Part shown: piece after piece, positions 3,329 to 16,640 of the stretch
How the letters are laid out: every line of letters starts with the position of its first letter
Numbering within the stretch: position 1 is the stretch's first letter
DNA from: Hanstruepera ponticola
GTDB lineage: Bacteria > Bacteroidota > Bacteroidia > Flavobacteriales > Flavobacteriaceae
NCBI RefSeq assembly: GCF_012931685.1
Contig: NZ_JABANC010000002.1
Coordinates: forward strand, 62,001 to 126,000
DNA length: 64,000 nucleotides
Reading direction: 5' to 3'
Position numbers and translations under genes: made by a program
Notes under the pieces: model-generated
What the model was told of the DNA's origin: nothing
What the model saw: only the letters and a program-made list of their open reading frames with translations
Databases searched by the model: none

Positions 3329-3453
3329 AGAAAATGGTTAGTTGGTTAATAATAAGTGATTTGAAAGATACCTATTTCCATAAAGAATTCCTATAATTGT
3401 GTAAGTCTAATATGACGTCTTGATATTATCATTAAAAACAACTAACTTCGTTT

Positions 3454-3499
3454 ACAACTGATATAATTAATTAAAACTAACCATATCAGGGCGTTGTGC
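3454..3499. repeat. attC-like imperfect palindrome upstream of HEPN-like gene
   Basis: ACAAC-TGATAT (3454-3464) can pair with ATATCA (3483-3488) and GTTGT (3493-3497), leaving GGGC (3489-3492) unpaired on one side only. A stem with an asymmetric bulge ending in a GTT core is the shape of an integron attC site. The terminal GTTGTGC (3493-3499) recurs at 4102-4108 after the gene. The similarity to attC is structural, and the canonical RYYYAAC/GTTRRRY consensus is only partly met. Confidence 0.4.
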
Positions 3500-3512
3500 A
3501 ACATAAGAGAAA

Positions 3513-4064
3513 ATGAAACCAGTAAACGAAATTTATTCTGAATTTCTTCTTGGGAATGTTAGATTTCACCGAGCAATTGAAAATGACTTATTTAGAGATG
3601 CGTTAATGTTTTTTATGGACAACAAATTCCGTACATCTGCGAGTTTATGTTCCACTCTTTACGAAATGATTTTTACAACCAGATTAGTCCGAGAAACAGC
3701 AAATCCAATCGGATTTATTCCAAGCAAAGAAAATATAAATGAGCAACTAAAAAATTTGATGGAAGAAGAGAATGATATAATTAATACACAAAAACTCTGT
3801 TTTCGTCAAATCACCAAAGAATTAAAAAACAAAAATGTAATTTCAGAAATTGAAAAGCAAGAGTATGACACATTTTATACTGAAATAAGAAATCCTGTAG
3901 CACACGGATTAACATTCCGACTATTTGAAAAACTTCTTGATAGAAAACCAGCACATACTTTTGAAGTGGAAACCAACTATCAACCTGTTTACAAAAAAGC
4001 GTCTGAATTATTAATTGACAAAATATATTATTTAATGGCAATTAAAGAATTAAGAAAAAAATAA
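3513..4064 (+). CDS. HEPN-like protein with Rx4H motif, possible integron-type cassette gene
   Basis: A 183-residue, largely helical cytoplasmic protein. I do not recognise a named family, but the segment TEIRNPVAHG contains R126-x4-H131 in a predicted helix, the signature of HEPN domains (many of which are RNases in toxin-antitoxin, abortive infection and CRISPR accessory systems, while others are only structural). No nucleotidyltransferase antidote or other partner gene is adjacent. The gene stands alone, 13 bases after one palindrome ending in GTTGTGC and 7 bases before another, as in an integron cassette. The ATG at 3513 follows AGAGAAA and gives a compact cassette. Confidence is high that it is a gene, low on its function. 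Confidence 0.7.
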   Translation: MKPVNEIYSEFLLGNVRFHRAIENDLFRDALMFFMDNKFRTSASLCSTLYEMIFTTRLVRETANPIGFIPSKENINEQLKNLMEEENDIINTQKLCFRQITKELKNKNVISEIEKQEYDTFYTEIRNPVAHGLTFRLFEKLLDRKPAHTFEVETNYQPVYKKASELLIDKIYYLMAIKELRKK

Positions 4065-4071
4065 TTACGTT

Positions 4072-4108
4072 GCACAACACAGTATATAAAAAATTGCTTG
4101 TGTTGTGC
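4072..4108. repeat. Perfect 10-base inverted repeat, attC-like, downstream of HEPN-like gene
   Basis: GCACAACACA (4072-4081) is exactly complementary to TGTGTTGTGC (4099-4108) around a 17-base AT-rich spacer. It has no T-tract, so it is not a typical terminator. Its right end GTTGTGC repeats the end of the upstream palindrome, which would make 3494-4102 a unit of 609 bases carrying a single gene. Confidence 0.5.
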
Positions 4109-4213
4109 TTAATCAAAGGTCGTTGCTTGTTTTGTTTCGTCTGATTTTCCTTCGGAAAATACTCGTATACATAACCGCAACTTTCCATAAACATAAACGA
4201 AACTTCAAAATTT
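4109..4213. other. Structured non-coding segment between cassette-like unit and glycosyltransferase gene
   Basis: No convincing gene is present. The segment holds a perfect hairpin ATTTTCC-TTC-GGAAAAT (4144-4160), an outer pair GTTGC (4122-4126) with GCAAC (4177-4181), and further GTTTCG (4134-4139) with CGAAAC (4198-4203). Nested pairs like these suggest a folded repeat element or a remnant of another cassette. The two short overlapping open frames here look incidental. Confidence 0.35.
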
Positions 4214-5446
4214 CTAGGATTTATTCTTCTCCTCAATCCATTTACTCATATACTTGGTACTTTGCAGAGTTTGGTGTTGAAGTATTTGTCCGATAGTATT
4301 GTTTAGTCTATGAGATTGCATGTTGCCCTTAAGATGCTGTAACAATTTAATAAAATTGTTTTTATGAGTTTCCTTTTTAAAACGTGTATTTAAAACCCTA
4401 AAGCCGTTTTGTTGCTTGGTTTTCCATTGGTTTTCATCTGTATACAGTTGTACAGCTTTATTGGCAAAATCTACAGGATTATCTTCCATAAAACCATTAG
4501 ATTCTAAATCCCCAAACATACCTTCAGCAGCGATTGAGCTCATAATACAAGGTGTACCGCTTTTCATAGCATCAATCAATTTCCCTTTTAAACCTGCTCC
4601 AAATTGTAATGGTGCTAAACAAACTCGGGTTTGTTGCATAACTGTATTAACTTCTTCAGTATATCCTTTTATTAAAAACCCTTGTTTGTCATTATGCAAT
4701 TGGTTTATTTTTTGTGTAACATAAGCTCCATAAATATGTAATTCGGCTTGTGGTAATTGCTTTCGGATTAATGGCCAGATGGTTTCTTTTAAATATAAAA
4801 CCGATTGGTAATTTGGAGCGTGTAAAAAATTCCCAATGGTAATAAAATGTTGTCGTAATTCAAAATTAGGTAGTTGCACTATAACCTCATCTTCTAGTCT
4901 ATCTTCCATAAAGGGTAAATAAGTCAACAGTGATTTGTCAACATGCAAATCGGTAATTAGCAAGTTCATTTCAAATTCTGAAATAATCAAGCTTAAATCA
5001 CTTCTGAAGATACTGGCTAGTTCTCTTTTAAAGGTGTCGTTGAGTAAATAGGATCTCTCAAATGGTTTGTTATTTTTAAAAGCTTGCTGTCTGCCTTTTC
5101 GCAGTCCATGTAAATCTTCGGTATCTAAAATTCGAAATGCATCTGGGCAGTTTTCAGCCACGCGCCAACCAAATTGCTCTTCCATCATAAAACGATCAAA
5201 CAAAACCACATCTGGTTTTAAATGTTTTATGAAGTCATCGAAAGAACTCGAATTGACTTCAATGGACTTTTGAGAAATTCCTATAGATTCGAAATCAAAC
5301 GCTTGCTTACGCTTTTCACAGGGACTAGCAAAGGTTATTTGATAATCTAGCGATTGAAACGTTTCTATAAGCTGCATCATGCGGCTTCCAGCTGCAGAAC
5401 TTTTGGGTTCTGGCCAAACAAAGCCAATAATGAGCAGTTTAGACAT
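4214..5446 (-). CDS. Glycosyltransferase, GT-B fold (family 4-like)
   Basis: A 410-residue cytoplasmic protein with two Rossmann-like halves. The N-terminus LLIIGFVWPEPKSSAAGSRM is typical of GT-B enzymes; the C-terminal half carries a HAPNYQSVLYLK segment, a GYTEEVNTVMQQTRVCLAPL segment and GAGLKGKLIDAMKSGTPCI, the place of the E/K-x7-E-like donor-binding motif of GT4 enzymes. The family transfers a sugar from a nucleotide donor to a glycan or lipid, usually for surface polysaccharide; donor and acceptor are unknown. It lies 3 bases behind the haem-binding protein gene on the same strand, so they share a transcript, though no functional link is obvious. The last ~40 residues are polar and variable. 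Confidence 0.8.
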   Translation of the reverse strand: MSKLLIIGFVWPEPKSSAAGSRMMQLIETFQSLDYQITFASPCEKRKQAFDFESIGISQKSIEVNSSSFDDFIKHLKPDVVLFDRFMMEEQFGWRVAENCPDAFRILDTEDLHGLRKGRQQAFKNNKPFERSYLLNDTFKRELASIFRSDLSLIISEFEMNLLITDLHVDKSLLTYLPFMEDRLEDEVIVQLPNFELRQHFITIGNFLHAPNYQSVLYLKETIWPLIRKQLPQAELHIYGAYVTQKINQLHNDKQGFLIKGYTEEVNTVMQQTRVCLAPLQFGAGLKGKLIDAMKSGTPCIMSSIAAEGMFGDLESNGFMEDNPVDFANKAVQLYTDENQWKTKQQNGFRVLNTRFKKETHKNNFIKLLQHLKGNMQSHRLNNTIGQILQHQTLQSTKYMSKWIEEKNKS

Positions 5447-16325: not shown

Positions 16326-16403
16326 TTTAAATTAATTGCTCGAGAATCGCATGGACTATCATACGTAAACTTTTATCCCGAAAGTTTGACTTATTTGTTT
16401 GAA

Positions 16404-16578
16404 TTTGGCAGGTCTCCTGACTTGCGTCTTTATGTTGGTCTTCCCAGAAATTTCCAGTGACTTCAGAAGTATAACATAAAGCGTTGTAGCTTACAGTTGC
16501 GGGAACAGTTCTGGACTAGACAATTACATGTCGCACCAGATTCCCTTTTAATTGACTTTGCCCAATTGCAAAGCCAAA
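16404..16578 (-). promoter_or_regulatory. Cobalamin (B12) riboswitch
   Basis: Read on the minus strand, the conserved blocks appear in order: GGGAATCTGGTGCGACA (near 16545), CTGTTCCCGCAACTGTAAGC (near 16508-16489), CTGGAAATTTCTGGGAAG and the B12 box GCAAGTCAGGAGACCTGCC (16425-16407). The closing P1 stem pairs TTTGGC (from 16578-16573) with GCCAAA (16409-16404). It ends 79 bases before the receptor ATG, so adenosylcobalamin should repress receptor expression, probably by hiding the start region through a loop-loop kissing fold. Confidence 0.93.
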
Positions 16579-16640
16579 CCAAAATTCGCTGCGAAATTAA
16601 ACATTTTGTTTAATGTTTCATCAATAACATGAAATAATAT

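Follow-up and report, generated by a model that had tools for sequence, protein, structure and literature searches.

The window analysed here is a stretch of 64,000 nucleotides from the genome of Hanstruepera ponticola (genome code G000), and the locus of interest within it consists of a lone gene for a protein of 183 amino acids that lies between two palindromes. Both palindromes, which a first-pass annotation of this DNA had proposed, are present in the sequence. The left one, ACAACTGATAT...ATATCA-GGGC-GTTGT, folds with a z-score of -0.93 on the top strand and -1.75 on the bottom strand when it is taken alone, and many shuffled sequences fold equally well; the right one, at 4072-4108 (GCACAACACA...TGTGTTGTGC), is a perfect palindrome and moderately remarkable (z -2.75 on the top strand, with 4 of 200 shuffles as good, and -2.71 on the bottom strand). 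The heptamer GTTGTGC occurs in both, at 3493-3499 and 4102-4108, as had also been reported. The two copies had been taken as the boundaries of a 609-base unit (3494-4102), but the right-hand copy is internal to an element of about 130 bp that runs on to G4199, and the extent of the unit must therefore be corrected. The palindromes and the shared heptamer thus stand, the right boundary does not, and the informative pairing lies elsewhere: the start tag GTTGTGCAAC (3493-3502) is the exact reverse complement, over 10 bases, of the end tag GTTGCACAAC, which is located just 3' of the stop codon of the gene. After these ten complementary bases the next base, an A, is unpaired. The features of the locus are collected in Table 1, in which the right half of the landing site has been judged against ten filled sites that are intact and against three empty sites; here and below, a slash within a sequence marks the cut.

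Table 1. Features of the proposed cassette and its landing site, in positions of the window
Feature	Position	Strand	Content or basis
Promoter-like segment of landing site (putative)	3420..3450	+	TTGA 3420-3423, TAACTTCG 3443-3450; reads into cassette
Left half of landing site, attI-like acceptor	3447..3493	+	TTCGTTTAC 3447-3455; TGATAT 3459-3464 and ATATCA 3483-3488; spacer GGGC; cut between G3493 and T3494
Proposed mobile unit (gene cassette), 706 bp	3494..4199	+	Tag complementarity; comparison with arrays and with the empty and filled pair
Cassette gene, 183 aa	3513..4064	+	Open reading frame; no recognised family
attC-like element	4069..4199	+	GTTGCACAAC 4069-4078, arm GTATAT, variable apical part, second arm, ...AAACG4199
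Right half of landing site, shortened	4200..4210	+	AAACTTCAAAA; intact sites have TAAACGAAACTT... or a near variant

The cargo protein of the window cassette gives two Pfam matches at E 0.17, both below the cut-off, and a single weak match in PADLOC (PDC-S05, E 0.044), and a tblastn search of the genome contigs returned no relative. At E<=0.01 it is matched in 3 of 99 genomes including its own, the other two at only 16-19 bits, and no homologues were found beyond these matches. Its single-sequence fold prediction is worthless (pLDDT 37). The protein contains the sequence RNPVAH, an R-x4-H motif which we take to be of the HEPN RNase type; to call it a toxin or a defence protein would be a guess.

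The element at the right of the gene is a repeat. When the DNA of 4062-4215 was used as a query, 59 of 99 genomes gave a match with E<=0.1, often a weak one, and the best match reached E<=1e-5 in 22 of the 99, the genome of the window included. The copies in the fetched stretches lie mostly in one orientation and are often 0.5-2 kb apart. The largest array, on the single contig of genome G044, is downstream of a recombinase gene and comprises at least 79 copies, since it may extend past the fetched stretch; all 79 have the same orientation, over 69 kb (3,130,158-3,199,154) and with a median spacing of 723 bases. Within arrays, the GTT of the next cassette directly follows the attC-like element.

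An alignment of 60 of the 258 unique elements, from which two of odd length (L199:5560 and L051:2051) were dropped, yields a hairpin of 12 pairs, and in 9 of these 12 both sides have changed with the pair kept. One covarying pair of columns, for example, holds AU 26 times, GC 20 times and CG 12 times, and the copy in the window is the only one with A opposite A. Before any shift is applied, 223 of 227 elements have the GTT where the model puts it, and 220 of 227 the AAC. The covariance model built on this hairpin has matches at E<=1e-6 in 90 of 296 Bacteroidota genomes and 58 of 140 genera, although its E-values are rough, at most 10 candidates were scored per genome and the scan was run without a shuffled-genome control, so that single weak matches may be due to chance. 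A short variant of the site exists in Rufibacter, where 11 attC-like sites of about 60 bp each form an array (L240, 9070-14784) behind a recombinase of the same kind; when 32 Bacteroidota loci that lack an attC match, out of the 80 loci retrieved by recombinase motifs (see below), were each compared with themselves, a second array type appeared in Rufibacter only, and repeats were also seen in L236, L249 and L265. Inspection by eye also indicates that the end tag and spacer (AACACC) of one attC subtype have an alternative partner in the apical GGTGTTnnGC, with which they can form a small hairpin; this hairpin is the palindrome at 4072-4108 described above.

The complementarity of the two tags of the window cassette was evaluated more broadly in 172 cassettes from 16 genomes, each defined by consecutive full-length elements on one strand and 200-4000 bp apart, after removal of duplicates and with truncated elements left out. 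The six bases that follow GTT are the reverse complement of the six that precede the AAC of the same cassette in 131 of these 172 cassettes, fully matching tags being missing in the other 41, and the mean number of matches is 5.24 out of 6; 1000 shuffles give a mean of 2.18 and no value above 2.51. The modelled cut and AAC were shifted, by no more than 2 bases, wherever this was needed to meet GTT and AAC (4 and 7 of 227 elements, respectively, misfit when unmoved); the observation that 171 of 172 cassettes start with GTT is therefore partly by construction, but the six tag bases are unaffected. Position 11 is an A at 171 of 172 starts, pairs with the end in none and faces a C in 151. With GTT and AAC required, the tags also match fully in 13 of 17 cassettes of loci fetched later, and they match in 7 of the 10 cassettes of the Rufibacter array. 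In an inserted integron cassette the start faces the end of its neighbour, a point of established integron biology that is carried over to the present arrays; the pairing between a cassette's own start and own end is what would be needed by a cassette that passes through a circle. Matching tags of this kind offer a simple means of finding further systems.

In 155 of the 172 cassettes the largest open reading frame shares the strand of the attC, in 11 it is on the opposite strand and 6 contain no open reading frame; the start codon lies a median of 25 nt past the cut. A family scan that covered 87 of 156 cassette open reading frames (loci L111, L069, L070, L122, L123 (G044), L113, L121 (G002), L061, L062 (G018)) found 42 Pfam families at E<=0.001 among the 87 proteins. 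Among the best 25 of the 42 families, single cassettes match a C5-methylase, an EcoO109I-type endonuclease, HerA, ParE, Barstar and a WapI-like immunity family, so that restriction-modification, HerA and toxin-antitoxin-type cargos are represented in single cassettes of the scanned arrays.

The window cassette itself is outside any array, in a landing site of about 70 bp that combines a promoter-like segment with a hairpin, in the order TTGA-N-TAACTTCG, TTCGTTTAC, TGATAT...ATATCA, a 4-base spacer and G/TT. The inner stem of this site corresponds to the left palindrome, and the outer arm TTCGTTTAC pairs with GTAAACGAA beyond the cassette, in intact as well as empty copies; because the arrangement recurs, it is far beyond chance. 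The promoter-like segment was compared with TTTG / TAnnTTTG, which we take to be the promoter consensus of Bacteroidota, and similar segments are seen by eye upstream of other dispersed cassettes in the same genome. The flanks of the gene, whose uniqueness would have spoken against the first-pass annotation, are not unique: the genome contains 12 clear copies of the landing site, scattered, with 12 different start tags and a different cassette in each, the start being ATT rather than GTT at two of the copies. One further site, C9:220979, is doubtful. The 400 bases after the cut in the 12 copies share no DNA similarity beyond one 31-base match, and the exact nine-base end tag is found downstream in 7 of 11 tested sites and is missing in 4. 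The pattern GTTGTGC-N-GCACAAC was not found in this genome. Beyond the cassette, ten filled sites that are intact, from three species, read CG/TAAACGAA, CG/TTAAACGAA or CG/TTAACGAA; at several further filled sites no right end could be located. The genus also has three empty sites (G002:C4, G001:C1 and G002:C6). The exact pattern of the left half of the site is present in only 3 of 100 genomes of the family (one genome per genus), and the acceptor type is therefore either narrow or fast-diverging.

Three orthologous loci were compared. At the window locus the acceptor is common to the genome of the window and to G004 and G002, and these three species carry three different cargos, so that the gene is not fixed at this locus; in two further species (G001 and G003) the acceptor is missing. 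At a second locus (locus B), whose neighbours are presumably a methylmalonyl-CoA mutase-like gene and a reductase-like gene, the acceptor and the right junction are common to G000 and G003 and the cargos differ; this acceptor is missing in G001, G002 and G004. The third locus is empty in G002:C4, which reads ATCAGAACG/TAAACGAAACTA and has an additional stretch of about 0.7 kb upstream of the acceptor, and filled in G000:C6, which reads ATCAGAACG/TTACCC...cassette...AAACCG/TAAACGAAACTA. The insert in this orthologous pair starts and ends at the G/T cut, there is no target duplication and the arms stay in place. Over 471 bases the cassette at the third locus shares 90.7% identity with the cassette that stands second at the C14 locus of G000, which places one cassette at two positions in the genome.

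These observations bear directly on the possibility that the arms TTCGTTTAC and GTAAACGAA are the terminal inverted repeats of a non-autonomous transposon or MITE, the element and its gene having been moved by a transposase. Dispersed units are indeed flanked by the arms as inverted repeats, and some orthologous loci have an acceptor site where others have none, so that the acceptor itself may have moved. The orthologous empty and filled pair, however, keeps its arms and differs only by the cassette between the cuts; neither a target-site duplication nor movement together with the terminal repeats was seen in this one pair. Different genes, moreover, lie between like arms, and the direct succession of attC-like element and GTT in arrays does not fit such an element either, which makes transposition of this kind very unlikely.

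Two variations on the acceptor may be recorded here. Some acceptors contain an extra segment in the hairpin loop, for example TGTATTGAGC(T/C)TGTCGAAATATTAAAAC, which is a further dispersed repeat (L034 at about 890-925, L035 at about 865-900, L041 at about 1555-1585). At locus B, G004 and G002 have other attI-like stretches, GCTATAAGTTG and TATATAACAAGTT (L188 and L189, at about 340-400 on the reverse strand), hinting at a possible second acceptor type.

The copy in the window has features of decay. Its right junction reads CATAAACG/AAACTTC, in which one expected TAAACG is missing, so that the right-hand G/TT core is gone; the loss of this repeat appears to have occurred by slippage. One stem pair is broken as well. 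The copy looks decayed, and the cassette is probably stranded.

The first-pass annotation had described a unit without an integrase. No integrase is found near the cassette, but recombinase genes often adjoin the arrays of relatives, some of which belong to the same genus (L113 and L121 in G002, L126 in G001, L127 in G004, and L230 in G003, where an element follows the gene). The array-linked recombinase has Pfam matches to Phage_integrase and a SAM-like domain, and most of these proteins have about 100 extra N-terminal residues, the first 100 or so residues giving no match. Among NCBIfam models NF040815 fits best; it represents a XerA family of archaea, and its title also mentions integron integrase. 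The best matches of relatives to TIGR02249, the model of IntI, extend up to position 180 or so and resume from about 240, with the middle unmatched; the whole-protein scores of two array-linked recombinases are 204 and 193 bits, below the cut-off of 265, and with match pieces scored apart the cut-off is reached in none of 99 genomes. The spacing from GLR to HxLRH is 89-90 residues in all 27 array-linked recombinases in which it is measurable (of 28 loci, L109 giving no value), versus 131 in IntI1, the one sequence on which this comparison rests, a plasmid search having given at least 5000 records that were all at least 99% identical. The IntI-specific insertion near patch III is thus missing in 27 of the 27 proteins. 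The solved IntI structure 2a3v aligns in two pieces, with 66 of its chain residues facing 23. A model of the G044 recombinase (pLDDT 81, pTM 0.56) ranks XerA 5hxy first (Z 25.2, rmsd 14.3, 268 aligned) and IntI 2a3v second (Z 21.9, rmsd 3.6, 262 aligned), in both cases over residues 103-374; the Cre, lambda and Tn1549 integrases fall below these two and decide nothing.

The association between recombinase and element was also approached from the side of the recombinase. Among 29 recombinase loci chosen irrespective of attC, from the top of the TIGR02249 match list, an element lies within about 1.5 kb in 9, and in 16 when longer flanks are included, which were obtained for 12 loci and with a choice partly guided by known element matches; one of the 16, L229, has a weak and far element. 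No element was found at the other 13 loci, 11 of which have about 1.2 kb or less downstream, and the 11 kb searched at each of L225 and L226 contained no match. Recombinase motifs were also used to retrieve 80 further loci from named genomes, many of which are not Bacteroidota, and 8 of these loci carry the modelled element, among them Winogradskyella ursingii, Seonamhaeicola aphaedonensis, Algibacter onchidii and Zunongwangia mangrovi; a ninth is Rufibacter, with its own short site type. An attI-like stretch follows the recombinase stop codon, consisting of a palindrome such as GATAAACnC..GnGTTTATC, about 5 nt and then the first GTT. Of eight loci judged by eye, the palindrome is clear in four (L111, L119, L117, L121), weaker in three (L112, L113, L118) and on the upstream side in one (L114). 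From its position, the palindrome with its G/TT is plausibly an attI. A plasmid of Persicobacter (CP012862.1, 200882-201994, hit H1) carries a relative that is 42% identical and covers 98% of the array recombinase, and such a plasmid might carry a system of this kind between cells.

The genome of the window contains only two Xer-like recombinases at E<=1e-10, with open frames of 298 and 296 aa, and no integrase was found in it. These two proteins are 27-39% identical to the array-linked ones, in alignments that begin at residue 106 or later. A match at C7:491160 with internal stops, considered as a dead integrase, proved to be an ordinary open frame of 296 aa.

That only these two are present might suggest that the housekeeping XerC and XerD move the cassettes, the recombinases adjacent to the arrays being mere passengers, and elements that exploit Xer recombination are known. 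This is very unlikely, because in several genera the gene for a dedicated recombinase immediately precedes the array, and a palindromic attI-like stretch separates its stop codon from the first cassette. A G/TT cut with N6 tags, moreover, does not look like dif. The landing sites are many and dispersed, the dif-type target being expected near the replication terminus.

The solitary position of the window cassette and the missing integrase are also what would be expected had a standard IntI placed a canonical integron cassette off-target in the genome, without any special landing site; attG insertion of cassettes by IntI1 is described in the available text of PMC12901181, citing Loot 2024. The target, however, is not arbitrary, since it has 12 clear promoter-hairpin copies in the genome and empty copies in the genus, and the array-linked recombinases differ from IntI both in the missing insertion and in their whole-protein scores. 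Off-target insertion by IntI is accordingly very unlikely. The capture system in this genome instead looks left over, no array-type recombinase having been found there, and recruitment of the cassette by a recombinase that has since been lost would be the simplest account, because array-linked recombinases are still present in the genus.

It is therefore concluded, at a probability of about 0.88, that 3494-4199 represents one gene cassette belonging to a Bacteroidota system of integron-like gene capture whose recombinase is not IntI. The case for a cassette with an attC-like site is strong. What can be read from the sequence are the boundaries, the pairing of a cassette's own tags, the covariation, the one-way arrays by the recombinase, the differing cargo and the precise empty and filled pair; three of the observations are footprints of movement, namely the empty and filled pair, the differing cargo in one site and the presence of one cassette at two places in a genome. 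The earlier suggestions of an integron-cassette-like unit cut at G/TT and of a divergent attC type specific to Bacteroidota are both upheld by the arrays, the tags, the covariation and the empty and filled pair. With somewhat less assurance, it is likely that the system as a whole combines an Xer-like recombinase lacking the IntI insertion, long cassette-specific tags with a fixed unpaired A and, in some genera, dispersed promoter-bearing sites that each hold one exchangeable cassette.

The mechanism proposed for this system, in which we infer the activity of the recombinase, single-strand folding, the circle and expression, would proceed as follows. A dedicated tyrosine recombinase, encoded beside the arrays in relatives, would excise the cassette in circular form. 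In the circle the start GTT-N6 would meet the cassette's own end N6-AAC, and the two could make up one long hairpin arm. The circle would then be inserted at G/T into the attI beside the recombinase gene, into the attC of another cassette or into one of the scattered attI-like landing sites. Each landing site seems to bring a promoter, so that a captured cassette could be expressed at once.

The system resembles the sedentary chromosomal integrons (the superintegrons of the V. cholerae type, with IntI) in its one-way cassette arrays, each cassette ending in a hairpin-forming attC, in an attI by the recombinase gene, here recognized by position, in the G/TT cut and in cargo that is mostly of no known family. 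Classical integron cassettes likewise have complementary start and end tags within one cassette. Among canonical features, arrays of one orientation (79 of 79 copies in G044, and the strand of the open reading frames in 155 of 172 cassettes) and the attI-like position are found; of the canonical attC features, the covarying hairpin is present but the R boxes mostly do not fit. The system differs from IntI integrons in its recombinase, which has no IntI insertion and mostly carries the N-terminal extension, and in its R box, which is GTT followed by six largely free bases, only 13 of 172 starts fitting the GTTRRRY of the canonical boxes RYYYAAC / GTTRRRY. It differs further in the strand of the recombinase gene, which, among 20 loci with an element, is that of the cassettes at 18 and divergent at 2, and in the occurrence of cassettes in dispersed promoter-bearing acceptors as well. 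These acceptors are the most unusual trait of the system. Because the IntI insertion was looked for and is missing, the system is regarded as an integron-like variant and not as an IntI integron. Xer-type recombinases (XerA, XerD) share the catalytic and core-binding domains, XerA being first by fold, but the present recombinases are distinguished from them by linkage to arrays, by the extra N-terminal part and by the palindromic attI-like stretch.

The literature contains several partial precedents. The attG insertions described in the available text of PMC12901181 are also lone cassettes away from an integrase, but the target in the present case is a defined, repeated promoter-hairpin site that is seen both empty and filled; in the terms of IntegronFinder, as given in the portion of PMC9024848 at hand, cassettes without an adjacent integrase resemble CALIN elements. 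The same portion of that report describes, for Bacteroidetes, earlier only In0 and then, with IntegronFinder 2.0, one complete integron, in Salinibacter ruber M1, as compared with 90 of 296 Bacteroidota genomes that match the model of the present work, although the two data sets differ. In the excerpts available, Bacteroidota are named among the integron-bearing phyla (PMC8618304, PMC9668308) and are not among the taxon-specific attC models of PMC8352920. The IntI insertion is described in the accessible part of PMC8138268 as essential for function, yet not fully conserved in its subgroup, and arrays with the hallmarks of integrons here adjoin recombinases that lack this insertion. A search of the open-access literature, with preprints outside its scope, found no title describing this system, although other papers may do so. 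If the system is confirmed, hairpin-cassette recombination arose or persists without the IntI insertion, and a large pool of Bacteroidota cassettes may have gone largely uncounted. Dispersed acceptors would let a genome express many captured cassettes simultaneously, beyond those that are served by one promoter.

Rfam contains no family that matches the cassette of the window at gathering scores, and nothing matching was found in one 19-kb array stretch at E<=0.1. Elsewhere in the window, at 16390-16598 on the minus strand, a cobalamin riboswitch is recognized at 103 bits.
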